Positions 9,361 through 33,124 of a stretch of DNA of 64,000 nt are shown here, in pieces. Source of the DNA: Pedobacter kyungheensis (GTDB lineage: Bacteria; Bacteroidota; Bacteroidia; Sphingobacteriales; Sphingobacteriaceae); the NCBI RefSeq assembly GCF_000812965.1, contig NZ_JSYN01000010.1:62001-126000 (forward strand). The letters run 5' to 3'. The stretch's first letter is position 1; the number at the start of each line of letters is the position of its first letter. A program made the translations under genes and the position numbers. The notes below the pieces were generated by a model. It was not told the origin of the DNA and searched no databases. It worked only from the letters and a program-made list of their open reading frames with translations.

Positions 9361-9463
9361 GACAGCATGACAGAAAAGACATAAGGAAGACCAAAGCAGA
9401 AAGACTAAAGACTAAAGGAGAAAAGGCTAAGGGTAAAAGACTAAAAACAGAAAGACTAAAGTG
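9361..9463. repeat. Degenerate AGACTAAAG word repeats
   Basis: AGACTAAAG and variants (AGACATAAG, AGACCAAAG, GGCTAAGGG, AGACTAAAA) recur at least seven times in about 100 bp. The 9228-9588 spacer otherwise holds the possible dnaK promoter and the alkaline phosphatase terminator. No gene is supported here. Confidence 0.65.
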
Positions 9464-9518
9464 AGTGACCTGGGCTAATGGGTTTTGAAAATGAAAATTG
9501 GAGCCTTGGGGGGAACAC

Positions 9519-9563
9519 AAAACGAAACAAATCAGTTTTTAGGCTGCTTGTTTCGTTTTTTTT
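9519..9563 (-). terminator. Intrinsic terminator of the pafA operon
   Basis: AAAACGAAACAA (9519-9530) pairs with TTGTTTCGTTTT (9548-9559). A T-rich run follows on the plus strand, and on the minus strand the structure lies about 30 bp after the phosphatase stop. Confidence 0.7.
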
Positions 9564-9588
9564 TATTTTACCCCTGTTAATCAAACGG

Positions 9589-11229
9589 TTACTTATTGGT
9601 GATCTCTGAAATAGGTTCGCCAACTGTTCCGTTTGGGGTTTGGATGTGTAACAGTGCGGCCAGGGTTGGCGCAATATCTGTCATGTAGTGCATACGGTTT
9701 GTAGTGCCCCGCTTAATGCCCCAGCCCATAAACACCAAAGGAATATGCGCATCGTAAGGGTTCCAGGTGCCATGTGAGGTTCCGGTGTTGCCACCGTTAA
9801 ACCAGTTTGGTTGTAAAACGTAATAAATATCGCCGCTCCGGCGTGCATTATAGCCGTTGGTGATCATTTTTTTCTGGATTTCCTGAAGGGTAGACTGCGA
9901 TATTTTGGCCATATCAACCGCATTCTGGAAACCATCCAATCTTTTTAAGTATTCAACAGATGCGGCTTTGATGATGTCAAAGCTAATGCTCGCTTTATCG
10001 GTTTTGCCGTGATCGAAGATAATCTGATTATTCTGCGATTTTAAAACCACATTGTTAAGCTTAAATTTGTCATTCAGATAAGTATTTAATTTATTCGCAA
10101 TGTCGCGGTCGTTTACTGTTCCGGCCGGTAACCTGTTCTCCTGCATAAAGCCGGGTACATGCGCTGCACCATGATCGGCCGTTAAAAACACCATGTAATT
10201 CGCTTTGCCAACTTTTTCATCAAGGTAATTGAAAAATGCTTCCAGATCTTTATCCAGCCTTAAATAAGTATCTTCTATTTCTATTGAATTTGGTCCATAT
10301 AAATGACCAACATGATCGGTAGAAGAACAGCTTACCGCTAAGAAATCAGTGATATTATCCTGCCCCAGATGCTCCGAAGCAATAGCCCGTTTGGCCAGAT
10401 CTAAGGTAAGGGTATTGCCATAAGGTGTACTTCTGATGGCGTCGAAATTTTTATCGATATTTTGAGTCAATTGGTGCGGAAAGGTACTTTGTTTACCTTC
10501 ATAGGCTTTCTCATCTGCGGTACTGTTTACGTAGGTATTGATGGGGTACAAAGTTTCCCAGTTTTTTGCATAAAACCTGTTGGCGAGTTTCAATTTATTG
10601 TAATCGGCTATCCAGGCAGGCACTTCTTTCATGTAATAAGTACTGGTAATCCAGTTTCCGCTACTTGCCTGGTACCAGTAAGCCGCGTTTGCAGCATGAC
10701 CGGCAGGAAGAATCGATCCCCGGTCTTTTAAAGAAATCCCGATTACTTTAGCCCTGAAATTGGTGGCCAGCCTCAGTTCGTCGGTAATGGTGGTGGTTAA
10801 CATGTTTCTGGTCGACATGTTTCCTTCTGAAGATGGTGTACTGCCCACGGTTGATACAGTAGAATCTTCTGTACAGTATACATTCTTTTTGGTTTCAGGA
10901 TCGTACCAGTCGTTACCGATAATACCGTGCACTGCAGGAACCGAACCTGTGTAGATGCAGGTATGACCACAGGCCGTGTAAGTCGGGGTATATGGGATAA
11001 ATGTATTTTCAACTGAAAAACCATCGTTGATCAATCTTTTAAAACCACCCTGAGTGTAACGGTTATAATAACGGTACAGGTAATCCCAGCGCATTTGATC
11101 CACTACCAGGCCAACCACTAATTTAGGGCGGGCCACTTCAGCAGAATATGTGTTGGGCGCATTTTTGGTCTGGGCAAATGCGGATGAAAATATAGAAATG
11201 GAAAGAATTAAACAGAAAATTTTCTTCAT
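9589..11229 (-). CDS. pafA: PafA-type secreted alkaline phosphatase
   Basis: 546 aa from the Met at 11229. I prefer this start because it opens directly with a signal peptide (MKKIFCLILSISIFSSAFAQ), while the longer frame to 11280 adds 17 unlikely residues. The sequence matches the PafA class of phosphate-irrepressible phosphatases. It has metal ligand D44 in VVDQMRWD, nucleophile T85 in PTYTACGH, N106 in GIIGNDWYD, and the K-D-R signature as K168/R170, all offset by six from the published Elizabethkingia PafA residues T79, N100, K162 and R164. Further ligands are in SSTDHVGH, TADHGA and GTSHGTW. It should cleave phosphate monoesters in the periplasm or outside the cell. It is the last gene of the FecR-SusC-SusD-hydrolase operon. 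Confidence 0.88.
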   Translation of the reverse strand: MKKIFCLILSISIFSSAFAQTKNAPNTYSAEVARPKLVVGLVVDQMRWDYLYRYYNRYTQGGFKRLINDGFSVENTFIPYTPTYTACGHTCIYTGSVPAVHGIIGNDWYDPETKKNVYCTEDSTVSTVGSTPSSEGNMSTRNMLTTTITDELRLATNFRAKVIGISLKDRGSILPAGHAANAAYWYQASSGNWITSTYYMKEVPAWIADYNKLKLANRFYAKNWETLYPINTYVNSTADEKAYEGKQSTFPHQLTQNIDKNFDAIRSTPYGNTLTLDLAKRAIASEHLGQDNITDFLAVSCSSTDHVGHLYGPNSIEIEDTYLRLDKDLEAFFNYLDEKVGKANYMVFLTADHGAAHVPGFMQENRLPAGTVNDRDIANKLNTYLNDKFKLNNVVLKSQNNQIIFDHGKTDKASISFDIIKAASVEYLKRLDGFQNAVDMAKISQSTLQEIQKKMITNGYNARRSGDIYYVLQPNWFNGGNTGTSHGTWNPYDAHIPLVFMGWGIKRGTTNRMHYMTDIAPTLAALLHIQTPNGTVGEPISEITNK

Positions 11230-11292
11230 TGGAATGGACGGTTTAAATAAAGGCATAGCGTTAAGCATCGCTAAAAACATTCGAAAGGTTAC

Positions 11293-12549
11293 TTATTTGG
11301 TTAAATAAGGGCCAAAAGTTTTAACTACTTCTAATTTTTCTTTGTTTTCATCTAAAACAAAAATTTGATAGGCATTTCCCTGATTGGTTACCCTTATCAC
11401 TACATGTCCGTGAAGGCTTTTAAATTTTTTCGTTATCCAGGCGCCAAGGTAAGCCTGGGTTTCTTGCTGCATGTGGGTATTGAAAACAGCAATACTATCA
11501 TCCCGGGTATTTTTTTCAACAAGCCGAAATGCCAAATCCTGGCCTGGTTGATCTGAGCACCAGCTCTGCTGAACTACAACATCGGGGGATAATGACTTTA
11601 TAAAAGCATCATTGTTGGCATCTCTGTTGCCATGATGATTAAGCGACATTGCTGTGATTTTACCTACGGCTTTGGCTATCGCTGGCTCAACATTTTTGCG
11701 CCCGGGAAATGCTTCACCTTCGTAACCGGTATTATCACCTCCTGTATAAAAACTAAATTTGCCGTACGTAATTTTAATGGCATTGCTTAATGGATTTTCA
11801 TTAAAATCATTTTTTGGCATAGAAGCATCAGGGAAACACTGAAAAGTTTTTTCGTCTTCTCCACTCCAAACATTATTATTGGATTTGATATTCCTGACAA
11901 CAAAACCTGGAAATGCTTTGGCATTAAACAATAAACAAATCTGCTTGCTACTTCCGGCCTGTAAAGCTTCATGTGTTAAACCATTTTTTATGCGGTGACC
12001 GATAAATTTAAGGTAGTTTGAAAAAGTAGGATTATTGCTGTAATACGTTCTTAAATCTACAGGATAATCAAGCCCCCTGTCTAACAATTTACTGATGGGC
12101 AGCTCTTCGTCAACATCGGTTAAACCAGATAGTTGGTAAGCTTTGTTAGTGGCTTCGATGCTATTGCGGTTAATCTGTCCGTAATGATCTTCATGATAAT
12201 GGGTAATCAAAGCATAATCGATACCGGCTTTCCGGTTCCCGGGCATTACCTGTTTAATGTATGAACTGATCCATTGTCCGGGTCTTTTGCTCCGGCCGGG
12301 CAAAATCGGGGTAGACTTTAGCGGAAAGAATTTTGTATCAAATAGGTTTTTATTTAGGTCGCCTGCATCTACAAGCATGGTGGTTCCGTCGGGAAAAACC
12401 ATAAAGCTGGCATTACCTGCTCCGGTTTCAATAAAATGGATATCCCAAAAGCCTTCTTTCCAGGCAGGTAAGGAGCCCTGTGCATGAGCTTGGTTCTGCA
12501 AAAGTGCAGAACCAAGCAGCAATATTAAAAATCGCTTTAACATTAACAT
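11293..12549 (-). CDS. Secreted metallo-beta-lactamase-fold hydrolase
   Basis: 418 aa with a signal peptide ending near AHAQ (residue 24). The metallo-beta-lactamase core shows LVDAGD (60-64), the metal-binding motif THYHEDH with H117, H119, D121 and H122, and a later ligand region LNHHGNRD. The layout resembles the hydrolase domain of ComEC-like proteins, many of which act on phosphodiesters or nucleic acids, but the substrate is not fixed by sequence. It starts in a TAATG overlap with the SusD stop codon and lies upstream of PafA, so it is tightly coupled to both. In this setting a phosphodiesterase feeding the phosphatase is plausible (inference). Confidence 0.75.
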   Translation of the reverse strand: MLMLKRFLILLLGSALLQNQAHAQGSLPAWKEGFWDIHFIETGAGNASFMVFPDGTTMLVDAGDLNKNLFDTKFFPLKSTPILPGRSKRPGQWISSYIKQVMPGNRKAGIDYALITHYHEDHYGQINRNSIEATNKAYQLSGLTDVDEELPISKLLDRGLDYPVDLRTYYSNNPTFSNYLKFIGHRIKNGLTHEALQAGSSKQICLLFNAKAFPGFVVRNIKSNNNVWSGEDEKTFQCFPDASMPKNDFNENPLSNAIKITYGKFSFYTGGDNTGYEGEAFPGRKNVEPAIAKAVGKITAMSLNHHGNRDANNDAFIKSLSPDVVVQQSWCSDQPGQDLAFRLVEKNTRDDSIAVFNTHMQQETQAYLGAWITKKFKSLHGHVVIRVTNQGNAYQIFVLDENKEKLEVVKTFGPYLTK

Positions 12550-13952
12550 TAATTTTGTTTAATGGATGGATCGGTATTGATCTGAGATTGAGGAATCGGC
12601 AGTTTAAGATTTTTTTCAGTAATACTGATTGGAATATTCTGCGCAGTAAACCATGCATTCATGGTACTGACAGCATTTCCATTCTTCAGTAAATCAAACC
12701 ACCTGTCGGCTTCACCTACCAGTTCAAGTCTTCTTTCCTGTTCGATTGCCGCTGAGAGTGCAGCTTTGGTTATTGCAGTTGTATTTAATAAACCTGCGCG
12801 GTTGCGCACCATATTTAAAGGATCTGCAACAGCCAAGATATTATCCAGCTTATTCTCTATTTCTGCTTTCATCAACAAAACATCGGCATACCGCAGCACC
12901 ACAAAATCGCTTCCGCCATCAACTATATTGACAGGCCTTTTCAATTTATTATTAAAAGGTATTCCGTTAGCGGTAATACCAACATAAACTGTTTTCCGTT
13001 TATCGCTGCTGCTATACAGATTATACAGTTCTTTAGTAGGGAGGTTATGTCCTTTTGCACCATCTACGGTACCCGACGGACTAAATTGCTGGTACATTAC
13101 ACTCCCTTCCGTATTTCCATTAATACCCGAAGCAAACTGTACAGAAAAAATAATTTCTTTATTATTCTCGTTATTCAGGTCAAATAATGTTTCGATAGGT
13201 ACTAAGCCGTGTACATTTGATGCAATAACGGCATCTACCTGTTCTTTGGCCAGCCTATAATTGCCCTGGGTAAGGTAAACTTTTCCGAGCAGTGTTTGGG
13301 CGGCCGTTTTAATTACCCTACCCGGCTGAGTAGCGGCCACCGGCAAATTGTCGATTGCATCCTTGAGGTCGGTAATAATCTGTTGATACACCTCGTCTAC
13401 AGGCGTACGTCCTTTTCCAAAGTATTGGTTGGGATTGGTTGTTTCGGCAGTGGCCAAAGGCACATCTCCGTACAAACGTATTAAATTGAAATAAACCAAT
13501 GCGCGGATAAATTCTACCTCCCCTTTCCGGGCATTTCTGGTTGTTGCGCTTGCATATGGAATGTTATTTATTCTATTGATCACCACATTGGCCCGTTGTA
13601 TGGTAACATAACTGTCAGACCAGTTTTTTTCTAAAATATCGTTTGTTGAGATGGTTTTGAACTGATCCAGATCCCCAAATATGCCGCTATCATTAGCTGG
13701 CACTTCATCAAAACTATTGTCCGAAGGGATTTCGGCCAATGCAGGCAGGTAAAGCCCATAAAGACCGGTAGATTGTAAGCTGGCATAAACTGAGTTTACA
13801 TACTCTTCTGTTTCCTTTTCGTTGGTTAAAAAATTGTTGATTACTTTTTCTGTGATGGGTTCCTGATCCAATTGTTTTGAACAAGAGCAAATCCCTATTA
13901 AACTACAGCATAGCATGATTATCTGTAGCCTTCTTTTATTCTCTAATAGCAT
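12549..13952 (-). CDS. SusD/RagB-family nutrient-binding lipoprotein
   Basis: 467 aa from the Met at 13952, which lies 10 bp after the SusC stop and opens a lipoprotein signal (MLLENKRRLQIIMLCC, then lipobox LIGICSC). The frame stays open further upstream inside susC, but those residues are not plausible. The TPR-like helical scaffold and C-terminal region (ERRLELVGEADRWFDLLKNG, then NLKLPIPQSQINTDP) are typical of SusD/RagB. It is an outer-membrane surface lipoprotein that captures substrate and lids the partner SusC channel. Next to PafA and a secreted hydrolase, the ligand may be a phosphorylated compound rather than a glycan. Confidence 0.93.
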   Translation of the reverse strand: MLLENKRRLQIIMLCCSLIGICSCSKQLDQEPITEKVINNFLTNEKETEEYVNSVYASLQSTGLYGLYLPALAEIPSDNSFDEVPANDSGIFGDLDQFKTISTNDILEKNWSDSYVTIQRANVVINRINNIPYASATTRNARKGEVEFIRALVYFNLIRLYGDVPLATAETTNPNQYFGKGRTPVDEVYQQIITDLKDAIDNLPVAATQPGRVIKTAAQTLLGKVYLTQGNYRLAKEQVDAVIASNVHGLVPIETLFDLNNENNKEIIFSVQFASGINGNTEGSVMYQQFSPSGTVDGAKGHNLPTKELYNLYSSSDKRKTVYVGITANGIPFNNKLKRPVNIVDGGSDFVVLRYADVLLMKAEIENKLDNILAVADPLNMVRNRAGLLNTTAITKAALSAAIEQERRLELVGEADRWFDLLKNGNAVSTMNAWFTAQNIPISITEKNLKLPIPQSQINTDPSIKQN

Positions 13953-13962
13953 GTTCCTATGG

Positions 13963-16900
13963 TTAAAAAGTAATGTTGCAGCCCAATATATAAGTACGTG
14001 CAACAGGATAATTGTTATTGTTTTCGCCGCTTGACAAAATGGATTCTGGAGAACCCTCCGGATTAAAGCCCCTAAAATTATTGAGTGTGATAAGGTTATT
14101 CCCACTAATATAAATTTTGGCGCTGGTGATACCTACCTTCTTCAATGCGTTATCAGAAAATGTATAACCTAGCTGTGCGTCTCTCAAGCGTATATAGTCA
14201 CCATTTTTATAAAAAACATCCGAAGTTCTGGTTGATCTTCTTGCTGGCGAAAAATTGCCATAATTTGCCTCTGCCAGTGTTCCATTGGGGTTATTCACCG
14301 GATCGAAGGCATTTTGATAATAATATTTGCTCGGCAGGGTAAAACCCTCTCCGGATTCTTCGCGGGTGGCCAGCTGGAAAGCATAAATGGTACGCCCTGA
14401 AATGGCTGCAATAGAGAAACCTAAGTTGAAATTTTTCCAGGTGAAATTATTGGTCAGGCCATACGAAAATTTTGGAAAATAACTGCCCATGGGCTTCCAG
14501 TCGCTTTGGTTAATAACGCCATCTCCATTGGTATCTTCTACAATATAATCGCCCAGTAAAGTTCCGGGTAATTTAGGCAGGCTGTTCAGTTCTTGCTGGC
14601 TTTTGAAAACGCCGGTTACATGGTATCCATAAATTTCAGCCAAAGGTTCGCCAACTTTGGTAATGATATTTGCAGAACTTCCGGATATAATCTGAACCTG
14701 GCCAGGTGCTAACGCCAGTACCTTGTTTTTATTGTAAGAAAGGTTGCCGCTAATATTCCAGTTCACATCGCCCAGTTTAACATTATTGGCGCTAATACTT
14801 AATTCGAAACCGTTGTTGCGCATTTTACCGATATTCTGCAGGGAGGTTTTAAAACCACTTTGATACGGGATAGGCACATTGAGCAGTAAATCTTTCGTCT
14901 CGGTATTATAATATTCGGCGGTAAGGTTTATTTTCTTAAGTATTTCGAGGTCTAAACCAAGGTTGTAAGAAGTTTTTGTTTCCCATGACAGATCGGGGTT
15001 GGCAGTGGTAGATGCAGAAAAACCCGGTGCAAGCGCATTGCCAAAAACATAGTTTGACGATGGTCCGCCAGTAACCAACGACATGGAGCCGTAATTACCG
15101 ATCTGATTATTACCCGATTTACCCCAGGTAGCCCTTAGCTTACCAAAAGAGATGAAAGCATCTTGTGGGAAAAAGTCTTCTTTGCTAAATATCCATCCCG
15201 TAGTGATAGATGGGAAAGTACCCCATTGTTTATTTAAACCAAAGCGCGAAGAACCATCGGTACGGAAAGTAAGGGATGCAATATATTTTTGATCGTACAT
15301 GTATTGCAGTCGCGCAAAATAGGAAATCTGCGCCCAACGGTACTTTCCTGAAGCCGGATCAAGCGTAAAAGCACTTGCCCCGGTAATATTCTGTAGGTTA
15401 TCGTCAGCAATGTTGGCACCGTTGATGATGGTAGTTGAACCATTTTCTTTCTGAAAAGTGTAACCCGCAAGCAGATTAAAATCGTGCTTACCCAAAACTT
15501 TAGCATAGTTTAAAGTATGCTCTATCAGGTAGTTCAGTGTCGATCCATCGGTTTCTTTTGCGCTAGCCAATTTACCGGCAACAGCTGTACGGTAAGCACC
15601 AACATCAGACGGGTTATAATAATTGAAATACCTGCCGGAATAATCACCGCCAAGGGATAATTTATAGGTAAGGTCTTTAAAAATTTTATAACTGATAAAG
15701 GTATTACCAAAAATGCGGGTATAGGCCCGGTTATTTTTAACCTTAAGCAGTGTAGCTACAGGGTTTTCGATTAAAGCCCCATCCTCTGCCCTATTCGCAA
15801 TAATCTGCTCACTAATGGCCAGGCTACCATCATTATTGTAAGGTTTAAAAAAGGGGTACATGGCAGCCGCAGCACCTAGCGGATCGTTAAAATCGCCGGT
15901 ATTATCAAATACTTTTTGTTCGTTATAAGATGGATTAAGGCTAAACCCAAAATCGAGCTTATCTGAAATTTTTGAATTCACCTTAAAATTACCGCTATAG
16001 CGTTTCAATCCATTGTTGATTACCAACCCCTGCTGATCGAGGTAATTTGCCGATGCATAATAGTTGGTTTTGGCATTCCCACCAGAGAAAGAAAGGTTAT
16101 AACTTTGCATAGGTGCATCTCTAAAAATCTCATCAAGCCAGTTGGTATTTGTTAAACCTGGGGTACCATTTAAATAAGGATCTAAATAGTTCAACCTTAA
16201 TTCCCTTATCGATGCCCCTTTGGCTAACCTGGTAGCCCGATCATCATTTATACTTCTATTACCTGGATCTTTAGATACATAACCATTATCGCGGGCGCTG
16301 GTTAAAAACCTTGCTGTTTCGTATGCATCGGTATATTCTACCTTATCGGCCCTTTGCTGAATTCCGGTGTAAACATCCAATGATATTTTGGTCTGTTCGT
16401 TCTTTCCTTTTTTTGTTGTAATCAGGATTACCCCATTAGCGGCCCTCGATCCATAAATTGCTGCCGAGGCAGCATCCTTTAAGATATCCATACTTTCGAT
16501 ATCGTTAGGGTTAATGCTATTGAGCGAGCTTCCTTCGCTTAACGGGAAACCATCTACCACAATTAGCGGATTAGTGCCTGCTGTTAGTGTACCAATTCCC
16601 CTGATCACAATTTTAGGGTCAGCACCTGGTTGTGCCGAAATATCGTTAATCACTACACCTGCCGATTTACCAGAAAGCTGCTGGGCAAAATTGCTGCCTG
16701 CATAGGTTCCCAACTGTTCGCCTTTTACACTACTCAAAGAGCCCGTAACAAATTTCTTTTGCTGCGTACCATAGCCCACAACTACAACTTCCTTTAAACC
16801 AGCGGCATCGGCCACCAGATTAACAACAATACTGCTTTGTCCTTTTAGTGCAAACTCCTGGGGCTGATAACCGATGTACGATATGAGCAAAACGGCATCA

Positions 16901-17421
16901 TCTGCTACTTGTTTCAATACAAAATCGCCATTGGGATCTGATACGGTTCCCTTATCGGTTCCTTTGATTTTTATTGATGCACCAGGGAGCGGTTGTTTCG
17001 TTTCATCTAAAACTTTTCCGGTTACATCTATTAATTTCTGCTTTTCGGCACGGGGCGAAGGAAGCTCCTTTGCCTTAATGATTACGGTGCTGTCTACAAT
17101 TTTATAGGCAAGTGGCTGGTTAAACATGCATTTTTGCAAAGCTTCCTCTACCGGTGCATTTGTAACAGAAAAACTTACCGGCTTAGCATGATCAAGCGTT
17201 TTGTTGTTGTACAGCAGGTTATAACCGCTCTGTTTTTTAATTTGGTTAAGCACCAGTTCTATTGGGGCATCCTTAACAGAAATGGTAACCTGTGCTAAAC
17301 TTGATGCATTTACCTGCATCAGTCCAATGATGAGGAAGAAGCAGACGAACTTCATTATTTTAATTAATTTAATGGGCATGGAGCATGGAAAACTGCCCAA
17401 GCTTTTATTGGTAAATTTCAT
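13963..17421 (-). CDS. SusC/RagA TonB-dependent transporter with STN domain
   Basis: 1152 aa. After the signal peptide come an STN (secretin/TonB N-terminal) domain at about 45-115, a carboxypeptidase-regulatory-like beta-sandwich at about 128-210, the motif EVVVVGYGTQ near 213-222, a plug domain to about 335 and a large 22-strand barrel ending in the terminal aromatic residue F. The STN domain is the part that signals to FecR in FecA-like transducers, so ligand capture here probably feeds the FecR/sigma pair encoded just upstream. It imports a substrate across the outer membrane using TonB energy, together with the SusD downstream. Confidence 0.95.
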   Translation of the reverse strand: MKFTNKSLGSFPCSMPIKLIKIMKFVCFFLIIGLMQVNASSLAQVTISVKDAPIELVLNQIKKQSGYNLLYNNKTLDHAKPVSFSVTNAPVEEALQKCMFNQPLAYKIVDSTVIIKAKELPSPRAEKQKLIDVTGKVLDETKQPLPGASIKIKGTDKGTVSDPNGDFVLKQVADDAVLLISYIGYQPQEFALKGQSSIVVNLVADAAGLKEVVVVGYGTQQKKFVTGSLSSVKGEQLGTYAGSNFAQQLSGKSAGVVINDISAQPGADPKIVIRGIGTLTAGTNPLIVVDGFPLSEGSSLNSINPNDIESMDILKDAASAAIYGSRAANGVILITTKKGKNEQTKISLDVYTGIQQRADKVEYTDAYETARFLTSARDNGYVSKDPGNRSINDDRATRLAKGASIRELRLNYLDPYLNGTPGLTNTNWLDEIFRDAPMQSYNLSFSGGNAKTNYYASANYLDQQGLVINNGLKRYSGNFKVNSKISDKLDFGFSLNPSYNEQKVFDNTGDFNDPLGAAAAMYPFFKPYNNDGSLAISEQIIANRAEDGALIENPVATLLKVKNNRAYTRIFGNTFISYKIFKDLTYKLSLGGDYSGRYFNYYNPSDVGAYRTAVAGKLASAKETDGSTLNYLIEHTLNYAKVLGKHDFNLLAGYTFQKENGSTTIINGANIADDNLQNITGASAFTLDPASGKYRWAQISYFARLQYMYDQKYIASLTFRTDGSSRFGLNKQWGTFPSITTGWIFSKEDFFPQDAFISFGKLRATWGKSGNNQIGNYGSMSLVTGGPSSNYVFGNALAPGFSASTTANPDLSWETKTSYNLGLDLEILKKINLTAEYYNTETKDLLLNVPIPYQSGFKTSLQNIGKMRNNGFELSISANNVKLGDVNWNISGNLSYNKNKVLALAPGQVQIISGSSANIITKVGEPLAEIYGYHVTGVFKSQQELNSLPKLPGTLLGDYIVEDTNGDGVINQSDWKPMGSYFPKFSYGLTNNFTWKNFNLGFSIAAISGRTIYAFQLATREESGEGFTLPSKYYYQNAFDPVNNPNGTLAEANYGNFSPARRSTRTSDVFYKNGDYIRLRDAQLGYTFSDNALKKVGITSAKIYISGNNLITLNNFRGFNPEGSPESILSSGENNNNYPVARTYILGCNITF

Positions 17422-17476
17422 ACATTTGGTTTGTTGGATTTGATTTAAATTGACTTAGATTGATCTGGACAAACAG

Positions 17477-17502
17477 CCGGGGGCGGTCGCAACGCTTCCC
17501 GG
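17477..17502. promoter_or_regulatory. GC-rich hairpin between fecR and susC
   Basis: CCGGG and CCCGG arms enclose a 16-nt loop in an otherwise AT-rich 107-bp spacer. It could be an mRNA processing or attenuation structure that sets different levels of FecR and SusC; this is inference. Confidence 0.4.
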
Positions 17503-17528
17503 TTATTTTCTATCCTTTTTAGAAAATA

Positions 17529-18650
17529 TTATGGCATAAGCGTTACCCTCCTCCCTTCAAGCTTAAATTTTATGGTTTCGGTTTGCGCCAGCATTTCGAG
17601 TACTTTTGCTGCATTTTCGTATTTTGATATGGTTCCTGTAAATTCCATCCCTTCAAAATCGCCCTGATAGATAATTTCGAGGTCGTACCATCGGGCAATC
17701 TGCCGCATTACACTACGGATATCTTCTTTTACAAAAACAAAATTTCCATTTTTCCAGGCCATCGCACTTTGTGCATCTACACTTTTTAGGCCGATCTGAT
17801 TTAAACCGGGATGCACCGTGCCTTGCTCACCAGGTTTCAGGTAAGCATGGTTTGTTTTATTGCTCAACTCCACAGCACCTTCAATCAAAGTGGTTTTAAT
17901 TTCGGGTTCATCTGCATAAGCCTTTATGTTAAAATGGGTACCCAGCACTTTAACCAGGGCATCGTTTCCGGAGGTTGAAGTTGAAACGACATTTACCAGA
18001 AAAGGCTGTTGTTTGTTCTTTGCCACTTCAAAATAAGCTTCGCCCTTTAAAACAACCGAGCGGTTGTTCTGACCATTAAATGAAACAGGAAAGGTTAGCG
18101 ATGAGGATGCGTTTAACCAAACGCCTGTTCCATCGGCGAGGATCACATGAAACTGGATTCCATTAGGCGTAATGATAGAACTTAAACGGTTATCCCGATT
18201 GCCTGTTGAATCCACGTAACTGATCAGACCTTTTCGTTCCGCTCCCAAAACCATTTCCTGCCCATTGGCAAATTTTAAAACAGCATGATGTTTTACTGCA
18301 TTAATCTGTGGATTAACACCGTTTTGCTTAGATAAAAACCGGTCAGCTGCATTACTGCTCAAACGGTACTGGTTAAAAATAAGACCCGCTGAAACAACAA
18401 TCAAAATTGAGGCGGCGGCTAATATCCGCGTATATAACTTTCTGGTATGGGTATTTGTCTGCGTTTTCAAACGCTGTTTAAATTTTTCATATAGTTCTTC
18501 CTCAAGTCCGTCTTTAGCTGAAGCGGGAACTGAATCACCATGATCAAAATTCAGCGACTGAAACCATTCTTCCAATTTATCGGATTCTTCCCTGGTTAAG
18601 GTTCCCTTTTCGTAACCGTCTATTAAATGCTTGAGTACTGCAGATTCCAT
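17529..18650 (-). CDS. FecR-family anti-sigma factor
   Basis: 373 aa. The cytoplasmic N-terminal segment (1-75) is followed by one membrane helix (LAAASILIVVSAGLIF, about 78-95), a periplasmic FecR domain (about 155-260, with ADGTGVWLNASSSLTFP and GEAYFEVAKN) and a C-terminal DUF4974/STN-like domain (about 300-373). It should hold the ECF sigma factor inactive until the STN domain of the SusC transporter reports substrate. The gene order sigma, FecR, SusC, SusD is the standard one for these trans-envelope regulators. Confidence 0.93.
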   Translation of the reverse strand: MESAVLKHLIDGYEKGTLTREESDKLEEWFQSLNFDHGDSVPASAKDGLEEELYEKFKQRLKTQTNTHTRKLYTRILAAASILIVVSAGLIFNQYRLSSNAADRFLSKQNGVNPQINAVKHHAVLKFANGQEMVLGAERKGLISYVDSTGNRDNRLSSIITPNGIQFHVILADGTGVWLNASSSLTFPVSFNGQNNRSVVLKGEAYFEVAKNKQQPFLVNVVSTSTSGNDALVKVLGTHFNIKAYADEPEIKTTLIEGAVELSNKTNHAYLKPGEQGTVHPGLNQIGLKSVDAQSAMAWKNGNFVFVKEDIRSVMRQIARWYDLEIIYQGDFEGMEFTGTISKYENAAKVLEMLAQTETIKFKLEGRRVTLMP

Positions 18651-18813
18651 GTATTATGCTATAATTTACCCGATCATAATCAGTGTTTTATATTGGCATA
18701 ACGCATGGGATTTAACTACCCGTTAGTCAATTTGTTTTTTTTATTTAAAAAAGTTGATGACAGCCAGAAATCGGCTTGAAAGAATTTATTTTTTTAACAC
18801 TAACAGCTGTTTT

Positions 18814-19461
18814 TCAGATGATGAAATGGATATAATCTTTAAAAGTGTTTTTCAACTGTTTTAGTGCCCTTCTGATGTGCTGTTCTATGGTATTTTCGGA
18901 AAGGCCGAGTTTGAGTCCGATTTCTTTGTTTGACAGGTGTTCTTTCCGGCTTAATTCGAAAACAAGCTGGCACTGTGGGGGTAGTTTTTTAATCTCCAGA
19001 TTAACCCGTTCTTCAAATTCTTTGGCCTCGATCTGTTCAATGGTCGAGTGATCTACATCCGCGCCGGCATGCGTAATGTGCGCAATAAATTTCTGATCAG
19101 ACGATTCCTTTCTGTAATAACTGAAAATCTTATTCTTAAGACTAACATACAGATAAGCTGGAATAGAAATTTCGGGAGGCAGGGTTGCTTTCTTCTTGTA
19201 AAAACTAATGAAGGTATCCTGTACCAGATCCTCTGCCAGTTCCTTATCGGGCAACTTTTTTTTTGCTACAGCGAGCATTGGCACAACATACTTTTTATAA
19301 AGTAATCCAAAAGCCTCCTCGTTGCCATCTTTCCACAACAAAAATAACTCAGAATCGCTATTTGAAGAATTTATCACACTATGCCCCAGTTGTTTTGGAG
19401 AAATCAAATATGAATTTAAATAATTACATATCCAAATCGTTACAAACTTTAAGCTCAACAT
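18814..19461 (-). CDS. ECF sigma-70 factor (FecI-like)
   Basis: 215 aa as drawn. Region 2 includes EEAFGLLYKKYV and the ELAEDLVQDTFISFYKK core. Region 4 has LPPQCQLVFELSRKEHLSNKEIG and a helix-turn-helix in LGLSENTIEQHIRRALKQL. The first 28 residues are unlike the family, so translation may instead start at a GTG at 19377, giving about 187 aa. It should direct RNA polymerase to the downstream fecR-susC-susD unit, controlled by the adjacent FecR. A 163-bp spacer separates it from fecR. Confidence 0.9.
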   Translation of the reverse strand: MLSLKFVTIWICNYLNSYLISPKQLGHSVINSSNSDSELFLLWKDGNEEAFGLLYKKYVVPMLAVAKKKLPDKELAEDLVQDTFISFYKKKATLPPEISIPAYLYVSLKNKIFSYYRKESSDQKFIAHITHAGADVDHSTIEQIEAKEFEERVNLEIKKLPPQCQLVFELSRKEHLSNKEIGLKLGLSENTIEQHIRRALKQLKNTFKDYIHFII

Positions 19462-19474
19462 TTTGTTCCATCGC

Positions 19475-19511
19475 AGAAAAAATGCATACAGGTAAAATCC
19501 CTGTATGCATT
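19475..19511 (-). terminator. Intrinsic terminator after the porP gene
   Basis: ATGCATACAGG and CCTGTATGCAT (within 19482-19510) form an 11-bp stem with a 7-nt loop. On the minus strand the stem is followed by six T. It separates the GDPD-lectin-PorP unit from the sigma-factor gene. Confidence 0.85.
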
Positions 19512-19541
19512 TGGTTAATACGCTGAAGAACCGTTTGGCAG

Positions 19542-20468
19542 CTACTGTTTCTTTGCAATATTTACCCTGGCATTGATCTCAAAATCGCCGTTGGTATAAC
19601 CTCCTATTGCAGCAGTAGCCATATTATAATAAGCGGTAAAGTGTAAAAAAGATTTATAGGTTGCCCCGATACCGAAGGTGATATTTTTGGTACTGTGATA
19701 CATCATTATTGCCGACAATTTATCATTTATAAATGTCGCATTTAAGCCGGCATCCCACAAGCTATCAAATCCCTTTATTCCCCTCACTACACCTTTGGGC
19801 ACTAATGTTACACTATTCATATCCGATCCCAGCAAAAAACGATAACTCACCGCAGCGTAAAATGTAGGTTTATCTACAAAGTTCAGGTCATCTTTCCTGA
19901 AAACAGAACGCAGGTTTGGAATTGCGCCTTCAACAGTTAAGTTCTCTGAGGTATACGAAAGGCCAAAATCGCCATCAAGGTAATATCCCCTTTCGTTAAA
20001 ACGGGCGATAGCAGGATCGTTAATATCACTGTTGGTGATGCTGTTTAAATCCAGTTTATCCTGACTGGTACCGAAAGAAATACCGAAATTCAGCTTTTGG
20101 CTATCGCTGTTTAAAGGTAAGTGATAGGCGAAAGTACCCACTGCTTTGGTACGCTGTATACCTCCCGATTTTTCATTATAGATATTTACGCCCCAGCCGA
20201 TCTTATCTGCCTGTTTATCTAAGGTGATGCTTTGGGTAACCGGTGCACCTGGAATATTGGACCACTGTTTGCGCAAACTTCCGTTGATGTTAAAACCCTG
20301 ATCAATACCTGCCATTGATGGATTTGCCAGATAACGGTTCTGGAAGTATTGCGCATTGAGCGGGAGTACCTGGGCCCTGGCCTGGTTGGAGAATAAAATC
20401 CCGACCCAAGCTACAAACCCTAAGTATAGTGCCAGCTGATATTTTTTAAACTTGCCCATATAGCCCAT
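19542..20468 (-). CDS. PorP/SprF-family T9SS outer-membrane protein
   Basis: 308 aa with a signal peptide (cleavage near ARAQ). The start of the mature protein, LNAQYFQNRYLANPSMAGIDQG, is the PorP/SprF hallmark. The rest is beta-rich with alternating barrel strands and GVNIYNEKSGGIQRTKA. PorP/SprF proteins work with the type IX secretion system and are usually paired with a cargo bearing a type-B (CHU_C) C-terminal domain. That cargo is the gene directly upstream, coupled by a TAATG overlap at 20466-20470. It is therefore the dedicated outer-membrane partner or anchor for the lectin protein. Confidence 0.93.
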   Translation of the reverse strand: MGYMGKFKKYQLALYLGFVAWVGILFSNQARAQVLPLNAQYFQNRYLANPSMAGIDQGFNINGSLRKQWSNIPGAPVTQSITLDKQADKIGWGVNIYNEKSGGIQRTKAVGTFAYHLPLNSDSQKLNFGISFGTSQDKLDLNSITNSDINDPAIARFNERGYYLDGDFGLSYTSENLTVEGAIPNLRSVFRKDDLNFVDKPTFYAAVSYRFLLGSDMNSVTLVPKGVVRGIKGFDSLWDAGLNATFINDKLSAIMMYHSTKNITFGIGATYKSFLHFTAYYNMATAAIGGYTNGDFEINARVNIAKKQ

Positions 20469-23400
20469 TAATTTCTGATGACGTTGATGAAACCTTTAAT
20501 TGTAGGGCTGCCATCGCCCGGATCAATCACATAGTAGTACGTTCCTTCGCTTAACAGGCTGCCATTTATACTCGCATCCCAATCGTTTGCATAACGTTTT
20601 TTACTGTATAAAACCCGGCCCACCTTATCAAATATCTTAATGCTGTTATTTGGGTAGTATTCAATGTTCTTTATAATAAATTTATCATTATTACCATCTC
20701 CATTTGGACTGACCAAAGTACTCGCCTCCAGCTGGTGTGTATCCGGATTGTTTGGAACAGACAAACTGTTTTTCATTGATAACGCAGATGTGTTTGAAGA
20801 TGAAGGAGTAGCAACGTGTGGTACCCATAGCGCACCATCCGCACCACCATAATTCCATTGAACGACGGCTGAGGAGGAGCTTGTAGAGTTATTAACTATT
20901 GCATATTTTCCTGAATTTTCGTTAGCTATCCGCCAGTAATCCTGGTTTGGAGCCGCGGCTTGAAAAATAATCCATCTGCCATTGGCGGCTGTTTGATTTG
21001 CCTGCCACTGCCATATCACTGCCCCATTATCTAGAGAGCTAAATTCAACCGCCAGAAGTTTATTCGTCATTGAATTGAACAACTGGTATTTGCCGTCGGC
21101 CTGCCGGTTTAAATTCCAGAGGTTCCAACCGAAAACCTCAAGTTCAAGAATTTGTACTGCAGCCGCTCCATTAGTTGAATTTCTCGGACTAAGATCAAGA
21201 AACATCCCGCTATGCTTATTCGAGAACCCTGCCTGGGTTAGCACCTGTCCATTCACTTTAGGAGTGATGTCAACTTCCTGGAACTGCCAGTCGCCATTTG
21301 GCCCATTCTCCCAATATTGAAATACCTGGGCACCGTAAGCTGACGACGCGTTCTGAACAACAATCGGTTTACCTGTAAGTGCATTAGAAATGTGAAAATA
21401 ACCTGGCGTGGACCTTAATTCAGATATAATCCATTTTTGATAATCATTTTGCTGCTGTTTTTTTTGTCTTAACCCAACCTCGTCAGCTGAAAGGTTAGCC
21501 ACACTATTATCCAATTGAAGCGATTTACCTGTATAAAAATTCACAATATCGTATCTGCCTTCACCATCTTTAATCAGTTTAAAAAGATGGCCGGCACCGC
21601 TAAAAGCTTCAATGTTTTGCTTGGCTGCCGTATTGTTATCATTATTAAAATCACTTAAACTCAGGTATTGTCCACTGTTCCTGTTAACAATTCTATAAAC
21701 CTTCCCCGGCGCCAGTACTGGTGTGGTATTGCTTTCCTGAAAGGACCAGGCACCATTCATGCCGTCTTCACCGGACCACTGAAAGATAGGGTCGCCACTA
21801 GTGGTAGATCCTCCTGTTATTACCATTATTTTGCCACTATTGGCATTTGCGATATAATAACAACGGTTGGAACTATTCGAATAAGAGGGCTCAAATATCC
21901 GCCACTTTCCTTGTATGTAATCACCCTGATCCCATTGGGTAATCAAAGCACCGTTATCAAACGAAGCATCGTTTACCTGGAGTTGTTTATCGGTCAGTTT
22001 GCTAATCATTTGATACAGCCCCTTATCATCTTTTTTTAGCTTCCATACCTGGGTCGCTCCCGCATAGCCATCGCTGTTCTGATTGATACCTGTACCATTG
22101 CTCAAACCATAGCTGGTAAGCGTTGTAGTTAATCCACTTCTTTTGTTTACAATGAAAAAATCCTTATCCTCGCTAAAATCAGGCAGAGATACCTCTTCAA
22201 ATATCCATTGAGAATTCTCTTCACCACTATCATACTGAATAATGTTTGCCCATTCAGTTGGAAGTGCATCTTTTACTACAGCAAATTTACCACTATATGC
22301 ATTTTGCAGTCTGAACGATCCGTTTGGCGCATCAATCAAGTGCCACCTTGCATCGGGCGTAGTCGGCGATTCCCTTTCCCATACAGATACACGTATACCA
22401 TTATCGGTAGAGTATGAGGCGAGCGCTAATAACTTCCCATTAAAAACGTTTTTAATCCTTACATTTCCGGATGACAGGGGGATAACCTGCCACAGACAGC
22501 TAGAACCGGCATAACGTTCAGGGCGTTGTACGGCATCATTATCATCAGTCCAATTGAAATCGGTCAGACTCAGGTAAAGGCCACTATTTACGTTTTTAAT
22601 CCGGTATATTTTACCGGTAACCGGGCGAGGGCTACTGCCTGGAGGCACCAGATCATTATTATGTATTTGTTGCACCTGCGCTTTGCTTACCGTGTCGCTA
22701 TACATTTTAAAATCATCCATGTAGGCGATAGCACTCCCCCCCTCCATGCTATATGCACCCAGAGTAACGATAAAATTATTGTCGATGCTTTGCGTACCCA
22801 TATAGGTCATGCCACAAACCATATTGCCATCGGGTTTGTACATATATATTCTGGTAAAGTATTGACTTGCAGTAGTAATAATATGGTACCATCCTCGTTG
22901 GTCAAATTGGATAGGTTCGTAATTCCATAAATACCAGTTTGAATAAACACCAGCTGTATTTTTAATATAACGGTCAAGGCCCAATGTAGCCCAATTTTTG
23001 GCAATGCCGTTATAGTTTAGCACTCTATTTTGGTCGTGCAGGTTAAATATTTGCTCGTAAATACTACCGGTAGGAAATGGCACAGGACCTGAAGGTATGG
23101 AATCTGCTAAATCACAATATACCCATACCGATACCGTGAATTTGGTATTATAAGCATCAGGGTATGAAGTACTCTTACTCAGTTTTATCCCTGTTCCCTG
23201 GTTAGTCTGGTTAGATGATTGAAAAAATGTAGCTCCGTTTTGTATACCAAAACGGTCGAAAGCACCCACCAGTGTTCCCGAAACTGTCCCGGTTTGGCCG
23301 GTGGTCGCATCATAAGCACTACCATCGTCAAGGTTTAGCTGATGAACAAGTGGGGGTAAAGCTTGTGCATGGCTTTGGCTTGCCACCGAAAGTATCAGAA

Positions 23401-23497
23401 AGATGAACATCAGCAGCGGGCGCATATAAATAGCCATTTTGTTATATAGTTGTATGGTCCAATTATGAACTATTCTATTTGTATTCATAACAATCAT
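20468..23497 (-). CDS. T9SS-secreted multi-ricin-lectin protein with CHU_C C-terminal domain
   Basis: 1009 aa. The signal peptide (MRPLLMFIFLILSVASQSHA) sits about 25 residues in, so the true start may be one of the internal Met codons. A LamG/concanavalin-like domain covers about 50-275. Several ricin-type beta-trefoil (CBM13-like) units follow from about 290 to 910, with repeated words such as YRIKNVNSGLYLSL, YRIVNRNSGQYLSL and IANENSGKYAIV. The end (about 925-1009) is a CHU_C/gliding-type T9SS sorting domain with SPNGDGNNDKF and the final YYYVIDPGDGSPTIKGF. No catalytic domain is recognised. It is probably a cell-surface sugar-binding adhesin, lying between GDPD and PorP. Confidence 0.85.
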   Translation of the reverse strand: MIVMNTNRIVHNWTIQLYNKMAIYMRPLLMFIFLILSVASQSHAQALPPLVHQLNLDDGSAYDATTGQTGTVSGTLVGAFDRFGIQNGATFFQSSNQTNQGTGIKLSKSTSYPDAYNTKFTVSVWVYCDLADSIPSGPVPFPTGSIYEQIFNLHDQNRVLNYNGIAKNWATLGLDRYIKNTAGVYSNWYLWNYEPIQFDQRGWYHIITTASQYFTRIYMYKPDGNMVCGMTYMGTQSIDNNFIVTLGAYSMEGGSAIAYMDDFKMYSDTVSKAQVQQIHNNDLVPPGSSPRPVTGKIYRIKNVNSGLYLSLTDFNWTDDNDAVQRPERYAGSSCLWQVIPLSSGNVRIKNVFNGKLLALASYSTDNGIRVSVWERESPTTPDARWHLIDAPNGSFRLQNAYSGKFAVVKDALPTEWANIIQYDSGEENSQWIFEEVSLPDFSEDKDFFIVNKRSGLTTTLTSYGLSNGTGINQNSDGYAGATQVWKLKKDDKGLYQMISKLTDKQLQVNDASFDNGALITQWDQGDYIQGKWRIFEPSYSNSSNRCYYIANANSGKIMVITGGSTTSGDPIFQWSGEDGMNGAWSFQESNTTPVLAPGKVYRIVNRNSGQYLSLSDFNNDNNTAAKQNIEAFSGAGHLFKLIKDGEGRYDIVNFYTGKSLQLDNSVANLSADEVGLRQKKQQQNDYQKWIISELRSTPGYFHISNALTGKPIVVQNASSAYGAQVFQYWENGPNGDWQFQEVDITPKVNGQVLTQAGFSNKHSGMFLDLSPRNSTNGAAAVQILELEVFGWNLWNLNRQADGKYQLFNSMTNKLLAVEFSSLDNGAVIWQWQANQTAANGRWIIFQAAAPNQDYWRIANENSGKYAIVNNSTSSSSAVVQWNYGGADGALWVPHVATPSSSNTSALSMKNSLSVPNNPDTHQLEASTLVSPNGDGNNDKFIIKNIEYYPNNSIKIFDKVGRVLYSKKRYANDWDASINGSLLSEGTYYYVIDPGDGSPTIKGFINVIRN

Positions 23498-23508
23498 ATT
23501 TTAAGCGG

Positions 23509-24573
23509 TTAATTATTTGTATTTCTTTTTCCGTATACTTCGAGGAACTTCTTGAGCACTTCCAGCCGATCTGAAATCACTACATTAGGACTTCCCGTAT
23601 CCATTAACCATTGCCAGTTACCCCGATTATCAGAGCCATCGAGCTTTAACACACGCCACACCGCCGCTCCCGGCGACCAGTTACCCTCGCAGGTTTCGGG
23701 CCATTCGGGAAACTGGATCACCAGTCTGTTTTTGTCCCTCAGATAGGCCAGAATATTGGTATATGATTTCCCATCTATCGTAACCGCACGGGTGAGCATG
23801 GCATCGGTTGATTTAAAATAAATCATTTCAAATCCCGGGCAGCCGGCATCGACAAAAAGTTTAATCGTATCCTGAAGACCTGTACTGGCATCATAGCGTT
23901 CGCCAAAAATGGTAGGGGTGTACATTTTGAGCAACTGATCGCCTGGCACACTGGGAAAAGCATTCTTTAAGCCCTGAGGCGTGCCAAAGGTTTGATAGGT
24001 TGTTTTAAAAGTAACCATTTGGTCCATTCCAAGCTGATGGACAAGGGTATATACCTTATCAAAAAAGCGGTCTGCCTTATCAATACTTACCAGTATACCT
24101 TTAGTTTTGCAGAGCTGTAATACCTGTCGTAAGGTTGGAATAGGTGAACTGGTTAGCACACCTTCAGTATTCCTGAGCCGCAGGTTTTTTAAATCATTCC
24201 AGCTTTTATAAAAATTCCAGTTAGCATCCCTTACCACGCCTTTGCCATTCGTCAGCCTTTCTAAGGTCCAGTCATGAAAAACGTAGAGTGTATCATCGGT
24301 TGTTAGTTTAACATCCACTTCCATCATTTCTACGCCAAAGTCTGCGGCGGCCTGAAACGCTGCCATTGAGCCCTCCGGGTAATCTTTCCAATAACCGCGA
24401 TGTGCCGATAATAAGGTGTAGTTGGGAAAGGATTTAGGACAATTAAAAAGTTTTAAATTCCGCTGTAAAGGGTCTGTGGGTAATGGCCCTGTACAATCGA
24501 ATGTTTGCGCGTAGCTTTGCTGCACAAACAAAAATAAAACAAATAATATGATAAAGTAGGCTAATTTAGTCAT
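23509..24573 (-). CDS. Secreted glycerophosphodiester phosphodiesterase
   Basis: 354 aa with a clear signal peptide (MTKLAYFIILFVLFLFVQQS). The GDPD TIM-barrel motifs are present: SAHRGYWKDYPEGS (catalytic His and Arg), then VEMMEVDVKLTTDDTLYVFHDWTLERLTNG with the Glu/Asp metal ligands and second catalytic His. It should cleave glycerophosphodiesters to glycerol-3-phosphate plus an alcohol outside the cytoplasm. The lectin cargo starts 11 bp downstream, so the three genes look like one operon. Its product would be a substrate for the PafA phosphatase about 12 kb further on the same strand. Confidence 0.9.
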   Translation of the reverse strand: MTKLAYFIILFVLFLFVQQSYAQTFDCTGPLPTDPLQRNLKLFNCPKSFPNYTLLSAHRGYWKDYPEGSMAAFQAAADFGVEMMEVDVKLTTDDTLYVFHDWTLERLTNGKGVVRDANWNFYKSWNDLKNLRLRNTEGVLTSSPIPTLRQVLQLCKTKGILVSIDKADRFFDKVYTLVHQLGMDQMVTFKTTYQTFGTPQGLKNAFPSVPGDQLLKMYTPTIFGERYDASTGLQDTIKLFVDAGCPGFEMIYFKSTDAMLTRAVTIDGKSYTNILAYLRDKNRLVIQFPEWPETCEGNWSPGAAVWRVLKLDGSDNRGNWQWLMDTGSPNVVISDRLEVLKKFLEVYGKRNTNN

Positions 24574-24984
24574 AAAATTGAATTTAAAGGTTAATATATT
24601 AGATTCGATATTGTGCTAAAAAAGGAAAGCAAGCGCATAAGAAATAGCTTAAAAAACTTTAAAAGACAGCTTTTAATGAATTTTACCCTAAACTAAAAAT
24701 AACCGGACAATGAAAAAATAGATACTAGATAGAAAGGCTATAATAAACGATGAATAGGCATAATTACTAGATGAAACATATAACTAAGAGTATTAAGAAA
24801 TAAAATAAATAATACATAAAATTATTCAATAATGATACATAATAATTCTAAATAGCTATAAATAGATTATCAATTTAAAGGCTTTTGTTTCAAACGCATA
24901 ACGTATATGATGCTGTATGATCAAAGTTTTTGTATCTTTATTAAGTTATTATGCTAATCATTTAAACCCGTGTAATTCCCTATT
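24574..24984. other. AT-rich divergent spacer
   Basis: 411 bp between GDPD (leftward) and the DUF1304 gene (rightward), very A/T-rich with no coding sequence or long inverted repeat. It must contain the promoters of both units, but I could not find a convincing TTTG-N19-TAnnTTTG pair. Confidence 0.6.
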
Positions 24985-25344
24985 ATGCAGATAGCAGCAC
25001 AAATCATGATCGGGCTTATTGCCCTTATCCACATCTATATCCTTTGGCTCGAAATGTTTGCCTGGACAACCAGAGCGCCCAGGGTTTTTAAAACCATTCC
25101 TAAAGATTTATTTGCCCCTACCAAAACACTGGCTGCAAATCAGGGCCTGTACAATGGCTTTTTAGCGGCAGGTTTAATCTGGTCGTTATGCATAAGCGAT
25201 CACCATTGGCGCCTGTATGTAGCGATATTCTTTTTAACCTGCGTAATTATTGCCGGTATTTATGGTGCAGCTACAGCCAGTAAGAAAATTTTGTATGTGC
25301 AATCTATCCCTGCACTCATTGCAATTATTTTATTGCATTTGTAA
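24985..25344 (+). CDS. DUF1304 family membrane protein
   Basis: 119 aa with four predicted membrane helices (about 5-25, 50-68, 75-95 and 100-118). The family features LWLEMFAWTTRAPRVF near 20-35 and TKTLAANQGLYNGFLAAGL near 47-65 are clear. The biochemical role of DUF1304 is not established. The neighbouring gene starts 66 bp downstream on the same strand, so co-transcription is possible but not certain. Confidence 0.88.
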   Translation: MQIAAQIMIGLIALIHIYILWLEMFAWTTRAPRVFKTIPKDLFAPTKTLAANQGLYNGFLAAGLIWSLCISDHHWRLYVAIFFLTCVIIAGIYGAATASKKILYVQSIPALIAIILLHL

Positions 25345-33019: not shown

Positions 33020-33124
33020 GTTTAATTTGTTTGAAGCTAATTTATGCATAGCTGCTCGAAATAAAACCATGTAATGAAAAAATGAGACAAACGTTTGCCT
33101 TATTGGTTCATTGCTGGGCTTGTG

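Follow-up and report, generated by a model that had tools for sequence, protein, structure and literature searches.

What does a SusC/SusD pair import when the genes around it encode phosphoesterases? The question is raised by a 64,000-nucleotide stretch of the Pedobacter kyungheensis genome (hereafter the window; contig NZ_JSYN01000010.1, positions 62,001 to 126,000), in which SusC and SusD genes share one block with genes for a secreted glycerophosphodiester phosphodiesterase (GDPD), a metallo-beta-lactamase-fold enzyme and a PafA phosphatase. We propose that this block is an acquired island and that it probably serves to import and break down organophosphates with phosphodiester links; glycerophosphodiesters, or polymers or lipid headgroups of that type, are the likeliest. 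A phosphoester-scavenging SusCD locus had been put forward by an earlier, sequence-only reading of the window; our comparative genomics supports that idea, and the reading as a whole in part.

An island between dnaK and a methyltransferase gene

In the window, dnaK and a methyltransferase gene are 16,832 bp apart, compared with 165 to 2184 bp (median, 399 bp) in all 51 genus relatives in which this gap could be measured. Of the 60 genus genomes searched, 52 (our own among them) carry both genes on a single contig; in the other 8 they were on separate contigs (3 genomes) or one match was missing (5 genomes). In DNA alignments with seven relatives, the flanks match up to window positions 9375 to 9417 and resume from 24921 to 24985, and in one relative (G050; G, C and L numbers are our labels for genomes, contigs and loci) about 265 bp separate the matching flanks. 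Since the block is missing as a whole from this site in the relatives, we read it as an inserted island (9418..24920) of about 15.5 kb, which spans GDPD through PafA and includes both operons described below. It may have arrived in one step. A repeat search of both junctions found nothing but A-rich copies at 9393-9461 and one inverted pair at 9514-9564, and no junction repeats at the far end of the island.

The nine genes named by the sequence-only reading were all recovered where it had placed them by Pfam and NCBIfam profile searches, and all lie on the minus strand. The division into two operons also stands. The run upstream in the direction of transcription opens with the GDPD gene (23509..24573), followed after 11 bp by the gene for a large lectin secreted by the type IX secretion system (T9SS; 20468..23497) and, with a 1-bp overlap, by that for a T9SS outer-membrane protein of the PorP/SprF family (19542..20468; PF11751, 164.7 bits; TIGR03519, 153.7 bits). 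The other tight run leads from SusC (13963..17421; TIGR04056, 884.5 bits), a TonB-dependent transporter with an STN signaling domain (PF07660, 41.1 bits), through the surface lipoprotein SusD (12549..13952; PF07980, 97.3 bits) and the metallo-enzyme (11293..12549) to PafA (9589..11229), the spacings being 10 bp, a 1-bp overlap and 63 bp. As read from the sequence, the likely start of SusD is ATG 13952 rather than GTG 14105, the 10-bp spacing having been recalculated by hand for this start, and that of PafA is ATG 11229, where the PafA profile match begins. Between the runs lie the genes for an extracytoplasmic function (ECF) sigma factor of Bacteroidetes type (18814..19461; TIGR02985, 138.8 bits, cut-off 126.4) and a FecR-type anti-sigma factor (17529..18650; PF04773, 47.8 bits; PF16344, 67.2 bits). 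The PorP-sigma, sigma-FecR and FecR-SusC spacings are 80, 163 and 107 bp, with 80 bp and the sigma gene setting the two runs apart. Promoter and terminator scans gave counts near chance (44 against 41.2 expected and 18 against 15.4, respectively).

In Pfam searches, none of the nine island proteins matched families of glycoside hydrolases, polysaccharide lyases or carbohydrate esterases; a polysaccharide utilization locus has at least one such glycan-cutting enzyme with its SusCD. The lectin combines a weak laminin-G-like region (Laminin_G_3, under its cut-off) with ricin-type trefoil repeats (eight RicinB_lectin_2 stretches) and a T9SS type B sorting domain (TIGR04131; CHU_C, 83.8 bits). Its ricin-type domains may bind sugars. 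PorP/SprF proteins are commonly encoded next to T9SS proteins of type B.

A SusD clade with phosphoesterase neighbors

The island SusD belongs to a clade that is associated with GDPD and PafA. We searched 301 genomes of the family with a profile of eight SusD proteins and found, besides the window, at least 14 orthologs at 529 bits or more, the next match reaching 467 bits; the genome profile searches scored four to six candidates per genome (at most five for SusD), so that members may be missed. Every neighborhood was examined, and a phosphoesterase gene stands in the run of all 14. GDPD adjoins SusD in 11 of them (G781, G690, G751, G772, G011, G001, G587, G654, G732, G754 and G540) and lies one gene away, past the metallo-enzyme, in 2 more (G653 and G759). 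In the last genome, G048 (locus L016), the place of GDPD is taken by an Exo_endo_phos protein together with the metallo-enzyme and PafA. PafA is present in the run of two of these loci (G754 in L128 and G048 in L016), in addition to the window. The conserved co-occurrence of SusC/SusD with GDPD and PafA that the sequence-only reading had proposed to look for is thus found in 13 of the 14 loci for GDPD and in 2 for PafA. Six of the 14 orthologs were first met through the metallo-enzyme and went into the SusD profile; all eight that were first met through SusD only have GDPD.

A similar arrangement occurs in another family: Pseudarcicella hirudinis has the gene order FecR-SusC-SusD-GDPD-metallo-enzyme, with identities of 55, 61 and 65% for SusC, SusD and the enzyme. 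The SusD next in rank after the 14 (G613, L130) has GDPD too. In 11 loci hand-picked from the ranks under the ortholog set (L131 to L141, one example carrying a BNR_4 protein), no phosphoesterase lies within four genes on the strand of SusD; in L141, the opposite strand has a PafA gene at a distance of two genes. In a tree built from 43 SusD proteins, the phosphoesterase label clusters: it needs 3 changes, compared with 14.5 when labels are shuffled, and none of 500 shuffles went as low, a contrast that is inflated by near relatives and for which the window was labeled by hand and L141 was labeled "none". The SusD of G754 is the sister of the window SusD (support, 97/95). By sequence, the best solved counterparts are 8aa4 and 9sje for SusC (443.6 bits) and 9sje_B for SusD (296.6 bits with the profile), with which the island pair shares the common SusC/SusD architecture; the predicted SusD model is poor (pLDDT, 65).

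The loci of the metallo-enzyme point in the same direction. SusC or another TonB-dependent transporter lies near the enzyme in 22 of 24 loci outside the window. In 16 of the 24, the strand of the enzyme carries, at most three genes away, a gene for GDPD (10 loci), PafA (1) or an alkaline-phosphatase-superfamily protein (5). The remote or partial matches L008 to L015 (23 to 31%) belong to the tblastn pass only. The control consisted of 40 SusD loci drawn at random from 100 among the PF07980 matches listed for nine genus genomes, our own included, a list that favors high-scoring SusD and in which a few stretches stop at contig ends. The neighborhood profiles had been built in part from metallo-enzyme loci, and the control was therefore repeated with Pfam models. 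Hits numbered 0 of 40 with the same profiles, 0 of 40 for GDPD (Pfam) within 8 kb and 0 of 40 for PF01663 at 60 bits or more.

Several of the loci met through the metallo-enzyme or SusD have contents of their own. In L024 (3438-13958) and L025 (4565-17936), SusCD and the metallo-enzyme lie inside phosphonate-breakdown clusters: L025 has PbfA (NF049939, 725 bits, cut-off 525) between the metallo-enzyme and the phosphatase, with a PhnX-like gene near (229 bits, cut-off 219), and L024 has a PhnX-like gene under the cut-off (180 bits), with HpnW downstream (419 bits, cut-off 285). SusCD, GDPD and the metallo-enzyme are accompanied by a sodium:solute symporter (PF00474) in L027 (190-16274) and L037 (3330-15836), DUF6772 being scored in L037; downstream genes that, by eye, we take to encode mannitol dehydrogenase (L027) and fructokinase (L027 and L037) hint at a sugar-alcohol phosphodiester. 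In L032 (8795-11243; G606), two tandem copies of the metallo-enzyme follow SusCD and a gene that by eye resembles a calcineurin-type phosphoesterase. In L123 (280-14203; G011), a SusC gene and one for an enzyme of PF01663 (181 bits), separated by that of a 474-residue protein which resembles SusD by eye, face SusC-SusD-GDPD tail to tail.

The enzymes of the island

The metallo-enzyme scores 20.6 bits for Lactamase_B (PF00753), under the gathering score of 22.7, and its fold match comes from structure. The nearest solved proteins by sequence are Pce/CbpE (phmmer, 7.7e-6; profile, 1.5e-9) and then ComEC (profile, 5.9e-5). VIA-align searches with an AlphaFold2 model (pLDDT, 91.6) placed ComEC first (Z 27.9), followed by Pce (22.8) and RNase J (17.5). 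The metallo-beta-lactamase domain of ComEC (9ic4) is thus the closest solved fold, with 21% identity over 259 residues; whereas that version is a domain of a DNA-uptake channel, the island enzyme is free-standing and secreted. Pce/CbpE, the pneumococcal teichoic acid phosphorylcholine esterase (2bib, 1wra), has the same fold, with aligned HxHxDH, GGD and NHH motifs, 18 to 19% identity and Z scores of 22 to 23; unlike it, the island enzyme is found beside SusCD in Bacteroidota, and its activity is a predicted one. Residues H117, D121, H122, D272, H305, H306 and H382 are invariant in all 25 sequences compared, and H119 is nearly so.

Since the ComEC domain, Pce and RNase J all cleave phosphodiesters, phosphodiesterase is the likeliest activity, and the island enzyme is probably a phosphodiesterase of Pce/ComEC-like type. 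A true beta-lactamase is less likely with ComEC and Pce as the best solved relatives, even though enzymes with other activities follow lower in the VIA-align ranking (PNGM-1, which is beta-lactamase/RNase-like, Z 16.6; an arylsulfatase, Z 15.0) and Foldseek also gives the hydroxylase CmlA. The enzyme is uncommon: counting our own genome each time, it was found in 5 of 148 relatives, at least 7 of 395 phylum genomes and at least 15 of 301 family genomes.

The island PafA scores 802 bits for NF042991 (curated cut-off, 650) and aligns over nearly its full length with the PafA of 5tj3 (3.7e-177), including the TxTAxGHT, GNDWYD and SLKDR stretches, in which we take the catalytic residues (the active-site Thr, Asn and Lys/Arg) to lie. 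It differs from the 5tj3 protein, presumably of Elizabethkingia, as a second genomic copy within a SusCD operon. PafA is found in 58 of the 60 genus genomes (E <= 1e-100), and the window genome has two. The other copy (G000:C33) sits in the ancestral neighborhood, with a gene order common to G050, G057 and G048. We rejected the idea that the island PafA is a mere ancestral neighbor, given this copy elsewhere and the gap of at most 2184 bp in 51 relatives. On the PafA tree, the island copy lies inside the genus, where its neighbor is the PafA of G050 (support 88/85, which is modest) and the C33 copy stands elsewhere; the island copy has the longer branch (0.15, compared with 0.02). Because it groups inside the genus, the island copy is of the genus type and was taken up into the SusCD operon.

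Genome G754 suggests how PafA may have joined such a run. There (L128:5111-14233), pafA lies at its ancestral site and is immediately preceded, on its own strand, by SusC-SusD-GDPD; such a SusCD-PafA run might later have been transferred to the dnaK site. G754 was not the donor, since its PafA is less like the island copy (80% identity) than several others are (87 to 88%). By eye, the genes before SusC in L128 resemble those for a sigma factor and FecR, and SusC is read there as two separate frames. A second, distant type of SusCD also lies beside PafA: in L074 (8328-18747; G048), FecR-SusC-SusD-GDPD-GDPD stands directly upstream of the ancestral pafA.

The island GDPD matches PF03009 with 71.9 bits (gathering score, 23.6), the alignment being confined to profile positions 1-102 of 244, and has a signal peptide and the HR, ExD and H motifs; its solved relatives are 3i10 (1.9e-23) and 3mz2 (3.1e-19). 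Its identity with the in-operon GDPD of Pseudarcicella is about 30%. Close relatives of it were found in no other genome among 60 of the genus (E <= 1e-30) and 395 of the phylum (E <= 1e-40); the searched genomes hold other GDPDs, and the window genome has six PF03009 matches. The sequence-only reading had inferred that GDPD works with SusCD. The placement of both in the same insertion agrees with this, and the distance from the Pseudarcicella protein and the lack of close relatives in those genomes do not. Joint function of the lectin-GDPD operon and SusCD nevertheless gains in likelihood from the common island and from the regular presence of GDPD with this SusD clade, and we regard it as likely.

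Proposed pathway and its alternatives

In the pathway that we consider probable, SusD and the TonB-driven SusC would bind and import the ligand. Once loaded, SusC would use its STN domain to signal, by way of FecR, to the ECF sigma factor, which would switch on the locus. In the periplasm, the Pce/ComEC-like enzyme would cleave the phosphodiester, and PafA would strip the phosphate from the remaining monoester. The GDPD, with the T9SS lectin and PorP, may work on this material too or keep hold of it, whether outside or within the periplasm, and so supply glycerol-3-phosphate to PafA.

Several observations weigh against the import of organophosphates by this pathway. Eight of the 24 metallo-enzyme loci (L022, L023, L030, L031, L032, L036, L038 and L039) lack a GDPD, PafA or alkaline-phosphatase-superfamily gene; some of them look like ordinary SusCD loci, and the enzyme need not always mean an organophosphate. 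Weak PF01663 matches over the family cut-off lie within 8 kb in 2 of the 40 controls (25.9 and 27.7 bits), and the 362-residue enzyme of L018 itself reaches only 35.5 bits for this family. Therefore, the clean contrast is that for GDPD only, 10 of 24 against 0 of 40, in which the 24 loci include near relatives (L018 to L020; L033 to L035) and come from taxa wider than the control set. Outside the 40, three SusD matches were noticed by eye about 1 kb from a PF01663 gene (72 to 76 bits); together with the weak matches, they indicate that phosphodiesterase-family neighbors of SusD extend beyond this clade. Furthermore, the best solved homolog of SusC, 8aa4, aligns over nearly the whole protein, and the 8aa entries are probably levan or dextran (glycan) systems. 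The window operon lacks the in-operon GDPD of its orthologs, and the GDPD nearby is of a different, rarely found type. Finally, since Flavobacterium PafA is expressed at any phosphate level (PMC8115612), the locus could answer to its substrate rather than to phosphate.

The pairs of SusD and PF01663 genes just mentioned (G000:C34:155601-158279, G003:C6:327957-330634 and G002:C31:88769-91450) are candidates for another organophosphate SusCD type. At G008:C1:565193-568081, a PF01663 gene (260 bits) is followed by two GDPD genes.

Of the other explanations, the one that survives best is that two unrelated units, a surface adhesin with GDPD and a SusCD-hydrolase-PafA set, came together at one site by chance. 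This is possible, though short of an even chance, and for the SusCD-hydrolase-PafA unit it is compatible with organophosphate import. The two-run spacing fits it, as does the confinement of the window-type GDPD to its own genome (1 of 60 and 1 of 395), which leaves no conserved pairing. The absence of the block as a whole from relatives, the single strand of all nine genes and the standing of GDPD as usual partner of the clade speak for one unit.

We think it rather unlikely that the island is instead a glycan utilization locus for a phosphorylated polymer (teichoic acid, a phosphocholine-decorated polymer or a phosphonate-modified one), the lectin and SusD holding the polymer while the enzymes strip its phosphoesters; this explanation overlaps with the pathway proposed above, and the two are not exclusive. 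SusCD systems usually take oligomers, a T9SS lectin is in the same island, the entry name of Pce is teichoic acid phosphorylcholine esterase, and phosphonate genes stand beside related metallo-enzymes. Against these, the island has no backbone-cutting glycosidase, and among the 60 genus and 395 phylum genomes no other SusCD of the clade was seen to be accompanied by a GDPD of the window type.

Import of nucleic acids or nucleotides, with the metallo-enzyme as a ComEC-like nuclease, PafA as a nucleotidase and purines or phosphate as the gain, seems improbable. The recurrent partner of the SusD clade (13 of 14) is GDPD, a family acting on glycerophosphodiesters, Pce is nearer than ComEC by sequence, and the island has no nucleoside gene by Pfam. 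ComEC is the closer of the two by fold, however, the L016 run holds an Exo_endo_phos protein, and in L022 the metallo-enzyme lies between a TonB-dependent transporter and genes for adenosine deaminase, DeoD phosphorylase and a nucleoside permease. An ordinary polysaccharide utilization locus with PafA as a chance neighbor, to which the wide occurrence of PafA in the genus, the generic-looking metallo-enzyme loci and the further SusD relatives of the hand-picked loci could be counted, is very improbable given the second, nonancestral PafA copy, the nine proteins without a glycan-cutting enzyme and the GDPD/PafA association of the clade.

The sequence-only reading had called a SusCD system for an organophosphate unusual. 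The principle is known: SusCD-like PusCD complexes induced by phosphate depletion were described in Flavobacterium in 2020, beside phosphodiesterases, phosphatases and phosphonate genes, with PusD polyphyletic in six published forms (PMC8115612). The island likewise has a SusC/SusD pair, with PafA, GDPD and a probable phosphodiesterase co-located and no glycan-cutting enzyme among its nine proteins. In PUSI and PUSII of Flavobacterium johnsoniae, SusC and SusD stand beside phosphodiesterases or phosphatases rather than CAZymes, and, as in the island, ECF sigma and FecR genes accompany some clusters, PUSI having the sigma gene and PUSIII both (PMC8115612). The enzymes differ, being Fjoh_4172/4173 (pf00149, pf16670) or PhoA1 (pf00245) in F. 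johnsoniae, where PafA is listed as an orphan gene (PMC8115612); the island PafA is inside a SusCD operon. Induction at low Pi is a feature of the published systems (PMC8115612). The main text of that article does not contain "lactamase", pf00753 or pf03009 and has "glycerophosphodiester" once (PMC8115612). Among the matches listed in a search of titles and abstract openings in the open-licence literature, no paper dealt with SusCD and this metallo-enzyme. The acquired island is therefore its own variant within the known outline of organophosphate SusCD systems; what is new is the other enzymes, perhaps the SusD lineage, and the island with a captured pafA.

More tentatively, the SusD clade could be a dedicated glycerophosphodiester importer spread by transfer in Bacteroidota, and the Pce/ComEC-like enzyme a new family of periplasmic phosphodiesterases serving such importers, from glycerophosphodiesters to phosphonates and nucleotides. 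Here, the system would have captured pafA and a T9SS lectin-GDPD unit, so that one island would cover every stage from binding and import to cutting and dephosphorylation; its substrates might be phosphodiester polymers, teichoic acid for example. A SusCD clade tied to GDPD, a new phosphodiesterase-like enzyme and PafA supplies concrete candidates for a missing import route and a sequence marker for finding such importers in genomes. SusCD pairs should not default to glycan importers in annotation.

Near the island and outside it, a glycoside hydrolase 123 protein (PF19543, 1504 bits) is encoded at window positions 30050-33070. Farther along, positions 54632-57112 encode an 826-residue protein whose repeats are of the collagen triple-helix type (PF01391, 44 bits).

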